Both the position numbers and the translations under genes were made by a program. This document shows, one piece after another, positions 6,642 through 62,979 of a DNA stretch of 64,000 nt (positions within the stretch are counted from its first letter, which is position 1; the number at the start of each line of letters is the position of its first letter). Below the pieces are notes generated by a model. That model saw only the letters and a list, made by a program, of their open reading frames with translations. It had not been told where the DNA came from and ran no database searches. Source of the stretch: Frankia casuarinae (GTDB taxonomy: Bacteria > Actinomycetota > Actinomycetes > Frankiales > Frankiaceae); contig NC_007777.1 of the NCBI RefSeq assembly GCF_000013345.1, positions 1,736,001-1,800,000 on the forward strand, read 5' to 3'.

Positions 6642-7331
6642 GTGCTGTTCCACCTTGCCGAACCCGCGGCGCTTCTCGGGATCCTCCTCGCCTTCCTCAT
6701 CGGGATCTTCGCCCACGACGCCGCCCAGGTGCTCGTGGCCCGGCTGGTCCGTGACCCGACCCCGATGCGCTCGGGGCGGATGATGACGGGCCTGAAGGAC
6801 CGGCTCAGCCCGTTCAGCGCAGTCGCCGTCTTCGTCGTCGGCTACGGCTGGGCCGAGTCGGTGCCCATGAACGACGTGTGGCGGCGCCGCCGGTTCCACG
6901 TGGCCGCTGCCGTCCTGGCCGGGCCGCTGACGTATCTCCTGCTCGCCCTGGCCTCCCTGGCGGTGTTCCAGCCGCTCGGCGAGCCGGGGCTGGTGCGACT
7001 CGGTGACCGCGTCACCGAGGTGACGGTGCCGAACAGCTTCGGTGCCGAGCTCGCGTTGTGGATGGCCGTCACGTTCGGGTCGATGTTCATCATCAGCCTC
7101 GTCCCGGTCCCCCCGACAGACGCCGGGCGGTTGCTGTTCCTGCTCGGTCCGACCACGGCTGGCTGGCGCAACGCCCGGTACCAGTTGGCCGAGCGCAACA
7201 TCGGGTTGGGCATCCTGCTGGCGTTGTTGCTGCTGCCGGTGCTGTTCGTCGGATTCCCCTCGGTCGTCGGCCAGCTCATCGGCCCGTTGCTGCGGGGACT
7301 CGCCTCGCTGATAGGCCTCAACCTGGGGTGA
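6642..7331 (+). CDS. M50 (site-2 protease)-like membrane protein, likely inactive
   Basis: The 229-residue protein has about five or six hydrophobic segments arranged as in M50 proteases. Where the zinc motif HExxH is expected it reads AHDAAQ (residues 24-29), and where LDG is expected it reads PVPPTDAGRLL. Thus the second zinc His and the catalytic Glu are absent, although the Asp of the second motif is kept. It is probably a pseudoprotease or scaffold. The gene lies 39 bp after parA and 40 bp before scpA, so it is probably co-transcribed with them. GTG start. Confidence 0.7.
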   Translation: MLFHLAEPAALLGILLAFLIGIFAHDAAQVLVARLVRDPTPMRSGRMMTGLKDRLSPFSAVAVFVVGYGWAESVPMNDVWRRRRFHVAAAVLAGPLTYLLLALASLAVFQPLGEPGLVRLGDRVTEVTVPNSFGAELALWMAVTFGSMFIISLVPVPPTDAGRLLFLLGPTTAGWRNARYQLAERNIGLGILLALLLLPVLFVGFPSVVGQLIGPLLRGLASLIGLNLG

Positions 7332-7371
7332 TGATGATCACGTCGACGCCGCCGGGGCGTAGCGTGGCGCC

Positions 7372-8316
7372 ATGACCCGGTCTCGCGCCGCCCCGGCTGA
7401 CCAGGCCGCTCCGGCTGACCAGACCGACGGGAAGGCCGCCCCGCGCACCGGCGTGCCGACGGGTCGTGGTGGGCGCACGGAGACCTTCGTCGTCGAACTC
7501 GACAACTTCACCGGCCCCTTCGATCTGCTGCTCTCGCTCATCGCCAAGCATCGCCTCGACGTGACCGAGGTCGCGCTCTCCCAAGTCACCGACGAGTTCG
7601 TCGCGCACATCCGGCGGCTGGGGGACCGGTTCGACCTCGGCCAGGCCACCGAGTTCCTGGTGATCGCGGCGACCCTGCTCGACCTGAAGGCGGCCCGGCT
7701 GCTGCCGGGCGCCCTGTCCGAGGACGAGTCGGCGGACCTGGCCCTGCTGGAGGCCCGCGACCTGCTTTTCGCCCGGCTGCTGCAGTACAAGGCGTACAAG
7801 GAGGCTGCGGCGCTCTTCGCCGGCCTCATGGCCCTGGAGGCGCGCCACACCCCCCGGGCGGTACCCCTGGAGCCCCGTTACGCCGCCGCGCTGCCGGAGG
7901 TCCAGATCGGCATCGGCCCGACGGAGCTCGCGGCGCTCGCGGCCCGGCTGCGTGAGCCGCCGCTGCCGCCGCTGGTTGCGACCGATCACGTGCACCTGCC
8001 CCGGATCAGCGTGCGGGAGCACATGCTCGCCGTCATCGCGATGCTGCGCGAGGTGGGCACCGCGACCTTCGGGATGCTGTGCGTCGGCTGTCGGCAGACC
8101 ATCGAGGTGGTGGCCCGGTTCCTGGCGCTGCTGGAGCTCTTCCGCGAGGGCCGGATCTCCTTCGACCAGCAGGTCCCGCTCGGCGAGCTGACGGTGCGCT
8201 GGATCGCCCTGGATCCGGCGGTCGAGGCGGACGCCCCGCCGATCGGCCACGGGCTGTTCGGATCTGATCGGTACGGTGGGGACGCGCAGGAGGAGTCGCG
8301 GGAGGTGGCGTCGTGA
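7372..8316 (+). CDS. scpA: segregation and condensation protein A (kleisin)
   Basis: The 314-residue protein contains the ScpA motif VELDNFTGPFDLLLSLIAKHRLDVTEVALSQVTDEF (given here in part: residues about 42-76) and a C-terminal winged-helix part (FRIS/VPLGELTVRWIAL-like). ScpA is the kleisin bridging the two heads of the Smc dimer in the chromosome condensin. An Ala/Pro-rich tail of 40 residues precedes the domain. It overlaps scpB by four bases (GTGA), typical of translational coupling of complex partners. Confidence 0.95.
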   Translation: MTRSRAAPADQAAPADQTDGKAAPRTGVPTGRGGRTETFVVELDNFTGPFDLLLSLIAKHRLDVTEVALSQVTDEFVAHIRRLGDRFDLGQATEFLVIAATLLDLKAARLLPGALSEDESADLALLEARDLLFARLLQYKAYKEAAALFAGLMALEARHTPRAVPLEPRYAAALPEVQIGIGPTELAALAARLREPPLPPLVATDHVHLPRISVREHMLAVIAMLREVGTATFGMLCVGCRQTIEVVARFLALLELFREGRISFDQQVPLGELTVRWIALDPAVEADAPPIGHGLFGSDRYGGDAQEESREVAS

Positions 8317-8888
8317 CCAGGGAGGCCGGGGCTGCCGGGGAGGCCCGGCCGCCGCTGGGCGCGTTGCTCGAGGCGGTCCTCATGGTCGCGGAGAAGCCGG
8401 TCGGCGTCGCGGAGCTCGCGACTGGCCTCGGCGCCCCGGCGCTGGAGGTCGAGCGGCTGCTCGCGCAGCTCGCCGAGCAGTATGTCCGCGACGGCCGTGG
8501 CTTCCGACTGCGGCACACCGGTGGCGGCTGGCGCTTCTACACCGCGGACGAGTGCGCCCCCTGGGTCGAGCGCTTCGTGCTCGCCGGCCAGTCGGCCCGG
8601 CTGTCGCAGGCCGCGCTGGAGACCCTGGCCGTCGTCGCCTACCAGCAGCCGGTGAGCCGGGGGCGGATCTCGGCGGTGCGGGGTGTCTCCGCCGACGGCG
8701 TCATCCGCACCCTCACCGCCCGCGGCCTGGTCGAGGAGGTGGGGCACGATCCGGAGACCGGCGCGATCCTCTACGGCACCACCGACTACTTTCTCGAACG
8801 GATGGGGCTGCGCGGGCTCGACGAACTGCCGCCGCTTGCCCCCCTGCTGCCCGGTATCGATGAGATTGATGACATTGTTACGTCATGA
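8313..8888 (+). CDS. scpB: segregation and condensation protein B
   Basis: The 191-residue protein has two winged-helix domains, including LAVVAYQQPVSRGRISAVRGVSADGVIRTL, the signature stretch of ScpB (residues about 108-137, motif AYxQPxxR). ScpB dimers bind ScpA and regulate the Smc condensin. It starts at GTG 8313, overlapping scpA by four bases. Its stop codon TGA (8886-8888) overlaps an ATG at 8885, which opens the first of three tiny open frames described separately. Confidence 0.95.
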   Translation: MTREAGAAGEARPPLGALLEAVLMVAEKPVGVAELATGLGAPALEVERLLAQLAEQYVRDGRGFRLRHTGGGWRFYTADECAPWVERFVLAGQSARLSQAALETLAVVAYQQPVSRGRISAVRGVSADGVIRTLTARGLVEEVGHDPETGAILYGTTDYFLERMGLRGLDELPPLAPLLPGIDEIDDIVTS

Positions 8889-8948
8889 GTACCAGGTTCC
8901 CGTCATGAGTATCGGGCTGCTGTCATGAGTACCAGGTTCCCGTCATGA
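8881..8948 (+). promoter_or_regulatory. 20-bp tandem repeat forming three coupled minigenes before rluB
   Basis: Three 20-bp units (8881-8900, 8901-8920, 8921-8940) and the start of a fourth each carry GTCATGAGT. The scpB stop TGA overlaps ATG 8885, which opens MSTRFPS and stops at TGA 8906-8908. That stop overlaps ATG 8905, which opens MSIGLLS and stops at 8926-8928. That stop overlaps ATG 8925, which opens MSTRFPS and stops at 8946-8948, overlapping the rluB ATG at 8945. All four junctions are ATGA. The structure is directly visible. That ribosomes pass through it by termination-reinitiation is inference; the ancestral state was probably a single ATGA overlap. Confidence 0.75.
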
Positions 8949-9703
8949 GTAGCGGTGACCGCCCGGACGGGCCCCAGGACCAGGGCATCCGGCTGCAGAA
9001 GGTGCTGGCCGCCGCCGGGGTGGGCTCCCGCCGGCACGGCGAGGAGTTGATCGCTGCCGGTCGGGTCCGGGTGGATGGCACCGTGGTGCGCGAGCAGGGC
9101 CGCCGGGTCGATCCCGAAACCGCCCTCATCGAGGTCGACGGTGAGCGGATCGTCACCCGGACGGGCCTGGTCCACTTGGCGTTGAACAAGCCGCGCGGGG
9201 TGCTCTCGGCGATGTCGGACGACCGGGGTCGGCCGACGATCGCGGATCTGCTCACGGAGTTCGGCGGCGGGCTGTTCCACGTCGGCCGGCTCGACGCCGA
9301 CAGCGAGGGGCTGCTGCTCGTCACCAACGACGGAGAGCTCGCGCACCGGCTCACCCATCCCTCGTTCGCCGTCCCCAAGACCTACCTCGTCGAGGTGTCC
9401 GGTCCGCTGCGCCGTGACGTCCTGCGCCAGCTGCGCGCGGAGGTCGAACTCGACGACGGCCCGGTGCGCGCGGACTCGGCGCGCATCGTCGACAACGCGA
9501 ACGGACGGGTGATGGTCGAGGTCGTCGTGCACGAAGGGCGCAAGCACGTCGTCCGCCGGATGATGGACGCCGTCGGCCACCCGGTGCATCGACTGGTGCG
9601 CACCCGGTTCGGGGCGGTGTCGCTGGGAACCCTGCGCGCCGGGCGGGCCCGTCACCTCACCCGTCACGAGATCGGCGCCCTGTATCACGGCGTCGGTCTC
9701 TAG
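8945..9703 (+). CDS. rluB: RluB/RsuA-family 16S/23S rRNA pseudouridine synthase
   Basis: The 252-residue protein starts with an S4 RNA-binding domain (IRLQKVLAAAGVGSRRHGEELI region, residues about 16-60) followed by a RsuA/RluB catalytic domain with the active-site stretch GRLDADSEGLLLVTNDG, in which the Asp after RL is the catalytic residue. It isomerises a specific uridine in ribosomal RNA. Which uridine cannot be told; RluB (23S) is the usual call in actinobacteria. It follows scpB through an unusual chain of minigenes. Confidence 0.9.
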   Translation: MSSGDRPDGPQDQGIRLQKVLAAAGVGSRRHGEELIAAGRVRVDGTVVREQGRRVDPETALIEVDGERIVTRTGLVHLALNKPRGVLSAMSDDRGRPTIADLLTEFGGGLFHVGRLDADSEGLLLVTNDGELAHRLTHPSFAVPKTYLVEVSGPLRRDVLRQLRAEVELDDGPVRADSARIVDNANGRVMVEVVVHEGRKHVVRRMMDAVGHPVHRLVRTRFGAVSLGTLRAGRARHLTRHEIGALYHGVGL

Positions 9704-24418: not shown

Positions 24419-24964
24419 GTGTTCTGCACGAGGTGCGGACAGCAGAACCCGTCCGACGCGCTGTATTGCGCGCGGTGCGGGTCTCCTCTGGTACGTCCGG
24501 GTGAGCCCGTGGCGCCGGAGAGACCCGCGGAGCAGACGTCGACGCTGAACCTGGCGGCCGCGCTGTCCGGCATCGAGGGCGATCACGTCGACGAGTCGAC
24601 CGAGCGGGACGCCGTGGCCGCCGTTGACGCGCTACCTCCCGGCTCGGCGTTGCTCGTCGTCAAGAGGGGGCCGAATGCGGGGAGTCGTTTTCTGCTGGAC
24701 GCCGACATGACGACCGTCGGCCGCCATCCCGAGAGCGATATCTTCCTCGACGATGTGACCGTCTCCCGTCGGCATGCGGAGTTCCATCGCTCGCCGTACA
24801 CCAAGGGCTTCTCGGTTCGCGACGTCGGGAGCCTGAACGGTACCTACCTCAACCGCGAGCGGATCGACTCGGCTGAGCTCACCAGCGGCGACGAGGTGCA
24901 GATCGGCAAGTTCCGACTGGTGTTCCTGACTGGCGCGAGCTACGGGGGGTCAGCGGCACGGTGA
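24419..24964 (+). CDS. garA: GarA-like FHA-domain regulator with zinc ribbon
   Basis: The 181-residue protein starts with a zinc ribbon (Cys3, 6, 17, 20), has a linker with TSTLNL (Thr40, Thr42) like the phosphorylatable segment of GarA/OdhI, and ends with an FHA domain (about 78-170: TTVGRHPESDIFL, VSRRHAEF, GSLNGTYLN). In mycobacteria GarA is phosphorylated by PknB/PknG and controls 2-oxoglutarate metabolism. The zinc ribbon is an extra relative to mycobacterial GarA. GTG 24419 follows AGGAAG; the operon context (gcvH before, MerR after) agrees. Confidence 0.87.
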   Translation: MFCTRCGQQNPSDALYCARCGSPLVRPGEPVAPERPAEQTSTLNLAAALSGIEGDHVDESTERDAVAAVDALPPGSALLVVKRGPNAGSRFLLDADMTTVGRHPESDIFLDDVTVSRRHAEFHRSPYTKGFSVRDVGSLNGTYLNRERIDSAELTSGDEVQIGKFRLVFLTGASYGGSAAR

Positions 24965-24980
24965 CGAGGAAGGACCCACG

Positions 24981-25757
24981 GTGAGCGGCGGCCTCGCCGC
25001 GGCATCGTCGGCCCCGCGTTCGGGCGCAACGCGCTCGGACCAGGCCGGACAGAACGCGAAGGTGCTCAACATCGGCCAGGTTCTCGACCGTCTGCGGGCG
25101 GACTTCGCCGACATCACCCTGTCGAAGATCCGCTATCTCGAGGCGGAGGGACTCGTCGAACCCGCCCGTACCAGCGCGAACTACCGCAAGTACTCGGTCG
25201 ACGACGTCGCCCGGCTCCGTTACGTCCTGCACGCGCAGCGGGAGCGCTTTCTTCCGCTGCGCGTGATCAAGGAGGAGCTGGCGTCGCTCGACCGCGGTGA
25301 GACCCCGGTGCATCGGCCTGGACCCCGCGCGCTGCCCCCGCATCCGGCCCCTACCGGCCTGGACGCGTTCCTCGGGGCGGAAAGGGTCAGAATGTCGCGC
25401 CGGGAGCTTCTCGCCGCCGCGGGGCTCGGCGACGAGGCCCTGACCGAGCTGGAACAGCACGGCCTGGTGGGTCCGATCGCCGGCGGCGGGTACTACGATT
25501 CCGACGCCCTGCTCGTCGCGCGGACCGTGGCGCTGCTGGCCGGCCACGGCGTGCAGCCCCGGCATCTGCGGGCCGCCCGTACGGTGGCCGACCGTGAGGC
25601 TGGTCTCATCGAGGCCGCCGTCGCCCCGTTGCGGGGCCAGCGCGGTGGTGAGGGTTCGGGACGGCACGCCGAGACCGCCGATGAGCTGGCGGCGTTGCTG
25701 GTCCGCTTGCACGCGGCCCTGTTGCGCTCCCGGCTGGCGGCGGGACGATCGAGTTGA
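24981..25757 (+). CDS. MerR-family regulator, FtsR/Rv1828-like
   Basis: The 258-residue protein has an N-terminal MerR helix-turn-helix (NIGQVLDRLRADFADITLSKIRYLEAEGLVEPARTSANYRKY; about residues 30-72) and a second, C-terminal ligand-like region with GYYDSDALLVARTVALL. Homologues in this genomic position are Rv1828 of mycobacteria and FtsR of Corynebacterium, which activates ftsZ. GTG 24981 follows AGGAAGGA, 16 bp after the FHA gene. Confidence 0.85.
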   Translation: MSGGLAAASSAPRSGATRSDQAGQNAKVLNIGQVLDRLRADFADITLSKIRYLEAEGLVEPARTSANYRKYSVDDVARLRYVLHAQRERFLPLRVIKEELASLDRGETPVHRPGPRALPPHPAPTGLDAFLGAERVRMSRRELLAAAGLGDEALTELEQHGLVGPIAGGGYYDSDALLVARTVALLAGHGVQPRHLRAARTVADREAGLIEAAVAPLRGQRGGEGSGRHAETADELAALLVRLHAALLRSRLAAGRSS

Positions 25758-51672: not shown

Positions 51673-52753
51673 GTGCCGTTCCGATCCTCGTCGTTCTCGT
51701 GGTCTGGCTCCCGTGGCCCTGCGGTCCTGATGGTCCTCCGGGCCGTTCCGCACGTCCGGGCCGTTCCGCACGGACAAGTCACCGCTGTCCGCAGGCCTTT
51801 CCCGCACTCGCGCGGGTTATGCCGTCCTGGCCCACCACGCCAAACCTGGGGAAGGCCCGGGATGCGCCGGCGCAGCGAGCGAGCGGCGGCGGGCACGGTT
51901 GTACCGTAGCAAGGCGGGTGGGCAGCTAACCTGCGCGGGGGAGCACGCCAGGGCGGCTCGGTGCGCTCGGTTCCAGGCCGCTCGGTTCCAGAACGCTCGG
52001 TTCCAGACCGGTCGGTTCTCGTGCCTCGGATTTTCGGAATAACGGATCCTCCCTGGGAAATCCTTCCGGAAGAGGCCCGCCCCTGTGTGGTGGTGCAGCC
52101 GAGGTGGGCGATTGCCGAGCGGAAATCCGTGTATTACTAGATATAATCTTCCCGGTTCGGGGTGATGGTGGCAGGTGGTGCGGTCCGGCGGAGTGGGCTG
52201 GCCGGTCGTCGACGTTCGCGATCGTTCGAGTCGGCCGCCGCTCGCGGCACGTAGCGGCCCGCTCCTCGCTGTGACATCTACGGACGGCCGGAGCGACGCA
52301 CCTGAAACGACGCACCTGAAACGACGCACCTGAAACGACGCACCTGAAACGACGCACCTGAAACGACGCACCTGAAACGACGCACCTGAAACGACGCACC
52401 TGAAACGACGCACCTGAAACGACGCACCTGGCCGGAAGCGTCCGGTGCCCGCTACGCCGCATCCCGAGCCACCCGCCACACTGGCTGTACTCAGGAACTC
52501 CGGCCGGCTTGCCGGATGTAGCGATATGAATGCGACATTCGTCCTGCTGCGATGAGTCCACGGAACTTGATGTCAGGTGGGTAGCGAGGGTATATCATTC
52601 ACCATTTTCCCGAGTTTATTGTCCTGCTTCTCTTCTCGGCTACCATGGAGACGTCCCGTCCTTGACCACGACGTGGAGTATCGAGATGAAGTCATCCGCC
52701 CGCACGACCATCCGTGCGATTCTTCTGGTTTCATTCCTGGCCGCCGGCTCTCC
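51673..52753. other. 1.1-kb intergenic region with minisatellite
   Basis: No gene is supported. The region contains the 14-bp x10 minisatellite, an AT-richer stretch (52010-52160), and before hicA a lower-GC segment (52560-52700) that likely holds the hicAB promoter. A short frame (52686-52757) encodes a hydrophobic 23-residue peptide but has no other support. Confidence 0.5.
52294..52430. repeat. minisatellite: CGACGCACCTGAAA, ten copies
   Basis: Ten copies of a 14-bp unit start at 52294 and recur every 14 bases to 52420; the last is cut after CGACGCACCTG. Copies appear identical. The unit is not palindromic, and 14 is not a multiple of three, so coding through it is unlikely. Identity between copies suggests recent slippage expansion. 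Confidence 0.9.
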
Positions 52754-57860: not shown

Positions 57861-58277
57861 TTCCGTTGCCGCCGTCGCTCACCCTGATTATGAACACGTA
57901 AACGCCTGCCCGATCGGCACGTCGCGTACCCGCGCTATCCCGGGCTCCGCGTCCTGGTCGCATAATGCCGAGGTGGAACGCGCCAGCGAGAAATCGGATA
58001 GATGATTCTTGGCCTGTGGGTCGGCGTCCGGCGGGTGAGTACGGACATCGCCGTCGATCTGTCTACGGCTGCTGCTTCCACGCTCTCCCCGCGGCCGTGT
58101 TCCGCTTTTCCGTGCCTTTCTCCTCGTTGGCCGATGGGGGCCGAGGGCGCGCCGTGGCGGGTGCCGCCGTCGCGGCGGGGGTGATGGTGTCGGGGGTGCC
58201 GGTGTCGGGGGTGCCGGTGTCGGGGGTGCCGGGCCGGCGCGGTCGCGACCTGGTCACCGGATGACCGGGGTTACCGG
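57861..58277. other. intergenic region with 15-bp repeat
   Basis: No gene is supported. It includes three exact copies of GGTGTCGGGGGTGCC (58186-58230) and, at its right end, the duplicated start region of the next gene. Confidence 0.5.
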
Positions 58278-58286
58278 ATGACCGGG
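58256..58286 (+). promoter_or_regulatory. duplicated start region with minigene MTGVTG
   Basis: ACCGGATGACCGGG occurs at 58256-58269 and 58273-58286 (17-bp period). ATG 58261 opens MTGVTG and ends at TGA 58279-58281, overlapping by ATGA the ATG 58278 of the deiminase-like gene. The layout is like that before rluB. Confidence 0.65.
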
Positions 58287-62525: not shown

Positions 62526-62608
62526 ATGAGCCGACGGATCCAGCCGATCTTGCGGGAGTGGACAGCGATGAACGACAGCGGGCAGCGATGAGTGGTGGGC
62601 AGCGATGA
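62526..62608 (+). promoter_or_regulatory. chain of ATGA-overlapping minigenes before the DUF1232 gene
   Basis: ATG 62568 opens MNDSGQR and stops at TGA 62589-62591, overlapping ATG 62588, which opens MSGGQR and stops at TGA 62606-62608, overlapping the ATG 62605 of the DUF1232 gene. GGGCAGCGATGA is duplicated with a 17-bp period. The first frame may itself begin at ATG 62526 (21 codons) behind GAGGA. The overlaps are directly visible; a coupling role is inferred. Confidence 0.65.
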
Positions 62609-62979
62609 GTGACAGCGTCGGAATCGGGCTGCTCGTCGCCCTCGGGGCTCTCGTCATGATCGTCCTGGCGCTGGCCGTGGCCGCGCTGGTCGCCGTCCGG
62701 AAGTACCGGCTGCCGTTGCGGGGCCTCGTGGCGACCCTGGCGGGCCTCGCCTACGTCATCTCCCCGGTGGACGCCGTCCCGGAGATTCCGCTGGGGCCGA
62801 TCGGCCTGATCGACGACATCACCGTGATCATCGCGACCGTGGTCTACCTGCGTGGCCTGATCGCCGCGCGGCGGGGCCTGGACCCGGCCGGGATCGATCC
62901 ACCCGGCCGGGCGCCCCACCCGATGCCGCGGCAGCCTCCGCCGCCTCGGGTATCAGGCCGGCGCCGCGGTGCCCGCTGA
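62605..62979 (+). CDS. DUF1232 (YkvA-like) membrane protein
   Basis: The 124-residue protein has a first hydrophobic helix (about 7-31) and the DUF1232 motif ISPVDAVPEIPLGPIGLIDDITVII with a second hydrophobic stretch. The tail is Pro/Arg-rich. The family's function is unknown. ATG 62605 is the last of a chain of overlapping starts. Confidence 0.82.
   Translation: MSDSVGIGLLVALGALVMIVLALAVAALVAVRKYRLPLRGLVATLAGLAYVISPVDAVPEIPLGPIGLIDDITVIIATVVYLRGLIAARRGLDPAGIDPPGRAPHPMPRQPPPPRVSGRRRGAR

Follow-up and report, generated by a model that had tools for sequence, protein, structure and literature searches.

A 20-bp tandem repeat at the scpB-rluB junction of Frankia casuarinae forms three ATGA-linked minigenes and may preserve translational coupling

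Strict translational coupling was reported for 13 of the 14 overlapping gene pairs tested in one study (PMC6728339). For genes separated by a gap, a spacing of about 20 nt was described as nearly abolishing reinitiation in six native pairs, the loss in Escherichia coli pairs at +38 nt was given as 80-90% in two of three, or total, and coupling was stated to need no more than the final 15 nt of the upstream gene (PMC10666635). The distance limit is disputed, an in-vitro study covered in a review having found coupling at +39 and +73 nt, and the same review relates the proposal that short ORFs deliver ribosomes to genes (PMC12548453). Among the repeats located at gene junctions, MIRUs are scattered at 41 places in Mycobacterium tuberculosis H37Rv (PMC2734929), appear to be mobile and contain ORFs that couple at −4 nt to the gene at the insertion site (PMC12548453), and the MIRU lengths at senX3-regX3 are given as 77 and 53 bp (PMC4213456). 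Further systems for comparison are the axe-txe minigene (PMC8708949) and the topAI uORF (PMC12121999). No title on the scpB-rluB junction turned up in the paper listings searched, which says little.

The junction described here lies in a 64,000-nt window (positions 1,736,001-1,800,000) of the one-contig, 5,433,628-bp genome of Frankia casuarinae, and all coordinates below refer to this window unless stated otherwise. The source strain is presumably CcI3. Three genes follow one another on the plus strand, namely scpA (7372-8316; 314 aa; PF02616), scpB (8313-8888; 191 aa; PF04079 SMC_ScpB, E 2.5e-51; TIGR00281 above cut-off) and a gene for a pseudouridine synthase with S4 and PseudoU_synth_2 domains (8945-9703; 252 aa). 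The GTG start of scpB shares GTGA with the scpA stop. An initial annotation had called the last two genes scpB and rluB; the former name was borne out, whereas the latter was reduced to RluB-like, because the product scored above the cut-off of TIGR00093 and below that of the RluB equivalog. The rluB frame is not open before 8909 and offers no ATG, GTG or TTG ahead of 8945, and with the S4 domain beginning at residue 16, position 8945 is the sole such start before that domain. Upstream of this group, a possible 15-codon bridge frame VMMITSTPPGRSVAP (7328-7375, plus strand) joins the gene at 6642-7331 through GTGA to scpA through ATGA; the genome-wide excess of such bridges was not replicated, as described below.

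The 56-nt distance from scpB to rluB is bridged by a plus-strand tandem array (8881-8951), to which Tandem Repeats Finder assigned a period of 20 and 3.5 copies. Four copies of a 10-bp core, GTCATGAGTA, without any difference among them, alternate with 10-bp spacers arranged s1-s2-s1; five of the ten spacer positions distinguish s1 from s2. The G+C content of the array is 53.5% versus 72-73% in the flanking genes. ATGA occurs at 8885, 8905, 8925 and 8945; the first holds the scpB stop, the last is the rluB start, and each of the two middle ones closes one 7-codon frame and opens the next. The resulting plus-strand minigenes are MSTRFPS (8885-8908), MSIGLLS (8905-8928) and MSTRFPS (8925-8948), the first overlapping the scpB stop by 4 nt, each of the others its predecessor, and rluB the third, likewise by 4 nt. 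The initial annotation had described this chain as a 20-bp repeat around ATGA, with overlaps kept in frame since 20 = 7x3-1, and the coordinates, the frames, all four overlaps and the arithmetic proved correct. The s1-unit and s2-unit minigenes differ in four codons, all four of which alter the residue, and the minigenes use the rare codons AGT, AGG and TCA (2.5, 3.7 and 1.7 per 1000), which ruled out coding selection on the minigene peptide. Selection on the 10-bp core was also considered, as all five changes fall in the spacer half (chance 0.016), and was not relied on, the core having been delimited post hoc.

To place this arrangement among its relatives, 35 Frankiaceae genomes were searched, 29 of which, our genome included, had a readable scpB-rluB junction. 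G003 and G010 (genes split between contigs or lying at their ends), G013, G014 and G016 (no locus) and G015 (no hit) were left out; L083 and L107 were without one gene of the pair, L052 and L053 were dropped, being judged duplicates of G002 and G022, and L051 (Parafrankia colletiae), which probably corresponds to G016, was counted among the named loci, outside the 29. The results showed a direct −4 overlap of scpB and rluB at 11 of the 29 junctions, including four congeners, through ATGA (G001, G004, G009, G011, G017, G018, G019, G020, G021 and G024) or GTGA (G022), and the Parafrankia colletiae locus has a direct overlap too. Three ATG-started minigenes in series were present only in the genome of the window (1/29), and G033 has three linked frames at the equivalent position if CTG is accepted as the first start. 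The other 28 junctions show a direct overlap, a bridge of another kind, a long N-terminal extension of RluB or simply a gap. Linked bridges were seen in G002 (the 7-codon frame VNHVTPA, with a further in-frame ATG inside scpB), in G005 and G006 (22-23 codons), in G023 (22 codons), in G026 (7 + 41 codons) and in G031 (24 + 23 codons); the 7-codon bridge of G026 is visibly the end of scpB duplicated over 20 bp. No ATG- or GTG-started bridge leads to the first or homologous rluB start in G007, G008, G012, G025, G027, G028, G029, G030, G032, G033 or G034; G012 is linked via one long frame of >130 codons, and in G025 two short frames link to a later in-frame rluB start, the first start (+12) not being linked. 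Outside the family, bridges of 4 codons (VTSP or VTHP) were present at the three Dietzia loci and one of 10 codons at the actinomycetote locus L054. The distribution of direct overlaps suggests that a plain stop/start overlap was the ancestral state of the junction.

The region around the rluB start varies in other ways as well. In several direct-overlap genomes, rluB opens with a long repetitive Arg/Pro-rich extension, and long, repetitive, charged N-terminal extensions (Arg/Pro/Glu/Asp-rich) were observed in G001, G002, G004, G007, G008, G009, G011 and G012; their length varies greatly among species, and the genome of the window has almost none. At L034, L042 and L043 (G031, G028 and G033), a 23-codon frame starting MNIPGTRRRGRGG and ending in GTGA at an rluB start looks near-identical in the three genomes amid a variable region, and it is a candidate conserved leader frame.

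We regard the array as a tolerated, coupling-preserving duplication that would allow a ribosome relay from scpB to rluB, and we put the probability of this reading at roughly 0.52. The starting point would have been a directly coupled scpB/rluB pair whose stop and start shared ATGA, as in the relatives. About 20 bp across this overlap would then have been duplicated in tandem, followed by at least one further copy-number change, since the s1-s2-s1 order does not seem explicable by a single simple tandem duplication. A ribosome terminating on scpB could reinitiate at the ATG at 8885, terminate, pass in the same way through the starts at 8905 and 8925, and arrive at the rluB start at 8945, so that a relay of 4-nt overlaps would spare it a 56-nt scan. 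Direct crossing of that gap by scpB ribosomes should be rare, because reinitiation is nearly lost at gaps of about 20 nt; the relay is possibly not strictly needed, because coupling was reported at +39 and +73 nt and the loss at +38 nt can be only 80-90%. The hand-through of ribosomes proposed in the initial annotation is therefore sound as an idea and agrees with published reinitiation data (PMC10666635, PMC6728339). From the sequence we infer that ribosomes use the relay and translate the minigenes, that each step should lose some of them, and that any tuning would act through this loss; an evolved attenuator is unnecessary to account for the sequence. The most probable origin of the array is a harmless duplication, and the array would persist because it does little harm to RluB output, to which de novo initiation at 8945 probably adds.

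A possible but less probable explanation is that the tandem repeat is incidental, with minigenes that are not usefully translated and an rluB that is initiated de novo at 8945, helped by an unfolded scpB 3′ end. The arithmetic of the period speaks for it. All four junctions are in frame because a 20-bp unit with ATGA was duplicated, barring an earlier stop in the unit, and as 20 is one below a multiple of three, each copy becomes a minigene of 7 codons, its stop overlapping the start that follows. Such a chain arises from any repeat with a length of 3n-1 bases across ATGA, and 1 in 3 duplication lengths qualifies. Because TCATGA is palindromic, the minus strand of the array bears an equally perfect chain, MTGTWYS/MTAARYS/MTGTWYS. 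Four independent coincidences were thus ruled out, since a single period gives all the junctions and the minus-strand chain likewise, and the perfection of the four junctions is best counted as one event. Tandem arrays are also frequent in this DNA: the 64-kb window has 51 rows of them, some of which overlap, and many arrays in the sampled DNA lie across stop codons.

The abundance of comparable chains was examined as well. ATGA triples with spacings of 8-38 bases number 138 on the forward and 141 on the reverse strand of the genome, and a triple at 20-bp spacing occurs in this array only across all 5,433,628 bp. As the initial annotation had suggested, chains were counted against dinucleotide shuffles; the sample was 140 stretches and the window itself, 2.86 Mb in all from six Frankiaceae genomes, and genes were identified with a caller of our own making. 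ATG-only chains of at least two minigenes precede 3 of the 290 ATGA-start genes with their own upstream gap versus 0.78 in the shuffles, two of the three being located in the 64-kb window, and with GTG allowed chains were found at 20 of 524 starts versus 12.5. Longer minigene chains are thus somewhat over-represented.

Initiation signals bear on the incidental repeat in both directions. Shine-Dalgarno pairing was computed against the 16S tail. Upstream of minigene 1 there is no Shine-Dalgarno-like pairing (0.2 kcal/mol), and pairing is weak upstream of minigene 2 (−4.3), minigene 3 (−3.1) and rluB (−4.3, AGG-type). The value at 8945 is stronger than those of the directly coupled rluB starts in nine relatives (−2.6 to −3.1), as expected if rluB is initiated on its own, but it lies only near the boundary of the weakest quarter of the 527 called starts in this genome, with genome medians of −6.6 for 57 overlapping genes and −7.25 for 470 others. 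The array appears to have given rluB a slightly better site than that of its coupled relatives, so relay and de novo initiation are both possible. The 141-nt fold is ordinary (z −0.04; 92 of 200 shuffles at least as stable), which fits an incidental repeat and, as far as the overall stability of this one fold goes, speaks against leader-peptide attenuation.

Several other repeats and minigene frames came to our attention. A second ATGA chain at 62526-62608 comprises a 21-codon frame (or the 7-codon MNDSGQR from 62568) followed by MSGGQR (62588-62608) and leads to a DUF1232 gene (62605-62979); its spacings, 20 and 17, are both 2 mod 3, and CAGCGATGA is repeated in it. At 58252-58286, a 17-bp repeat covers the ATGA start of a 370-aa ORF with a linked 6-codon minigene, MTGVTG (58261-58281). 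The 7-codon frame VTRKDPR (24961-24984), with GTGA at both ends, leads from the gene whose end is at 24964 to a MerR-type regulator with its start at 24981. Elsewhere, at L133:1446-1487 (G000:C1:621446-621487), a 20-bp duplication over a GTGA stop leads to the 7-codon frame VSGEGAW. A perfect 14-bp tandem array of 9.8 copies (CGACGCACCTGAAA) at window positions 52294-52430 has a period that is not a multiple of three, and a perfect 18-bp array at G000:C1:1811035-1811110 has an ATGA in each unit (ATGACGTCGGGTGGCGCC) and is not a linked-minigene chain, because a period of 18 puts its ATGs in one frame.

Linked bridges recurring at the junction in other lineages would count for the relay and against an incidental repeat, and 105 loci (the 29 family junctions and 76 named loci) were examined in this respect. 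Eligible were the 36 loci without an in-frame ATG or GTG rluB start between −30 and +2, with scpB ending in ATGA or GTGA (RTGA-ended) in 13 and otherwise in 23; 4-nt or 1-nt overlaps leading to an in-frame start were accepted as links. The results showed a linked chain in the start-overlap frame at 11 of the 13 RTGA-ended non-overlapping junctions, our genome included, versus 4 of the 23 others (10/12 versus 4/23 with our genome removed), the two control frames giving 2/13 and 5/13 for RTGA ends and 4/23 and 5/23 for other endings. In a lineage test that excluded our genome, with per-junction chances of 0.01-0.37 from shuffled and length-jittered intergenic DNA, the strict count, which requires the homologous rluB start and fails G025 and G023, gave 6 of 11 linked versus 2.6 expected (P = 0.020), and the lenient count 8 of 11 (P = 0.0003). 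G002 (a success) and G012 (a failure) had been added to this test though earlier classed as overlapping, owing to an in-frame ATG inside scpB; without them the strict count was 5/9 versus 2.2 expected (P = 0.041), and it was 4/9 (P = 0.15) when G026, whose first in-frame start (+24) is not the one reached, was also failed. For Frankiaceae alone, the strict count was 4/7 versus 1.8 expected (P = 0.075), or 3/5 versus 1.5 (P = 0.15) without G002 and G012. Recurrence of linked bridges across lineages is therefore suggestive only, because the test was devised after seeing the cases, with our own lineage grouping and choice of starts, and as a fragile test (P 0.020 to 0.15) it weighs on the incidental explanation to that degree.

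Whether similar bridges are in excess genome-wide was assessed in a discovery set of four genomes (our own with the window, G004, G001 and G031), comprising 834 co-directional pairs. Among pairs with gaps of 3-150 nt before an RTGA start, gap classes 1/0/2 mod 3, of which class 1 is a one-step bridge, numbered 15/3/12 after RTGA upstream stops and 28/30/13 after other stops; class 2 is, we think, contaminated by mis-called starts of true overlaps. The ratio of class 1 to class 0 was 15:3 versus 28:30 (P = 0.008), and linked chains were found in 20/74 versus 31/221 (P = 0.010). In the replication planned beforehand (G028 and G030), neither excess was reproduced, with 3:3 versus 8:12 (P = 0.51) for the classes and 5/30 versus 16/97 (P = 0.59) for linked chains; pooling both sets, which together comprise 24 RTGA-end pairs in classes 1 and 0, gave P = 0.012 and 0.023, respectively, or 0.075 when the called start alone is considered. 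Of the duplications anchored at RTGA sites, 18 of 37 had a length of 2 mod 3, versus 31 of 96 controls (P = 0.06), a weak bias, the window array being recoded from distance 40 to 20 in the stop and start rows. For arrays that cover gene starts and whose period is no multiple of 3, 2 mod 3 versus 1 mod 3 stood at 4:1 for RTGA starts and 0:4 for others (P = 0.04), tiny numbers that were read off post hoc. A genome-wide filter for repeat lengths of 2 mod 3 was thus not established, and a general selective filter on insertion length is possible. The broader view would be that bridging minigenes are a recurrent, selected means of keeping neighboring genes coupled after DNA insertion between them, that several actinobacterial lineages evolved different stop/start-linked bridges at scpB-rluB (1-3 minigenes, 4-41 codons), and that mainly insertions of the right length survive; we consider it unlikely.

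Considerably less probable still is the proposal of the initial annotation that the repeat is a slippage-tunable translational attenuator, with selection on its copy number setting the RluB:ScpB ratio. The spacer order points to at least two changes in copy number, the CcI3 laboratory wild type is described as having lost 9 bp from a tandem repeat in a different gene (PMC5745019), and in M. tuberculosis the length of a repeat upstream of fpg1 correlates with expression (PMC2734929). The first two make copy-number change plausible and carry no tie to RluB dosage. Comparison of the relatives went against the proposal, as no chain of three ATG- or GTG-started frames was present at any of the 28 other Frankiaceae junctions, and spacing is not conserved, the conserved part of rluB lying anywhere from −4 to 928 nt from the scpB stop. 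Highly improbable, finally, is an action of the repeat as DNA (a promoter, a regulator site or an iteron-like array for rluB or chromosome segregation), to which the regular spacing of a core with palindromic TCATGA and a G+C content below that of the surroundings would be suited, but GTCATGAGTAC occurs twice in the genome, both times inside the array, a degenerate two-core pattern with ≤3 mismatches matches this array alone in the genome, and 8600-9100 has no promoter-like or terminator-like match to an E. coli-type consensus, the one type used.

If the relay from scpB to rluB works, this one locus would offer a natural series of reinitiation steps whose per-step hand-over efficiency is measurable with small constructs, and the rule that 3n-1 insertions preserve coupling and others break it would be directly measurable. 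It would also give a simple reason for the shared remainder of the 77- and 53-bp units at one mycobacterial MIRU locus. If the relay fails, the locus would serve as a warning that a perfect chain of stop/start overlaps can stem from a single repeat period.

Compared with known systems, all four junctions of the array are standard 4-nt overlaps in the right frames, as in ATGA-coupled gene pairs, and they differ from such pairs in that the intermediate cistrons are just 7 codons long and repeat-derived. The axe-txe minigene and the topAI uORF likewise consist of a very short frame just upstream that may increase or decrease translation of the gene that follows, whereas here three such frames stand in series with overlapping codons, and the RNA fold is ordinary. 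Like the fpg1 repeat, the array lies between two housekeeping genes, but length variation was observed at fpg1, and the part of that report available to us does not tie it to translation (PMC2734929). The closest resemblance is to the MIRUs of loci such as senX3-regX3, which are also repeat units at gene junctions: the ORF of the array unit overlaps the flanking stop and start by 4 nt, and 77 and 53 bp, the two MIRU lengths for which this was computed, are both 2 mod 3, as is 20. MIRU units measure 40-100 bp, in contrast to 20 bp here, and they are dispersed, whereas the array exists at one place only under the mismatch-tolerant pattern. As it is shorter and not dispersed, we did not file the array as a MIRU and liken the two by description rather than by sequence; on paper, it would work like a MIRU array.
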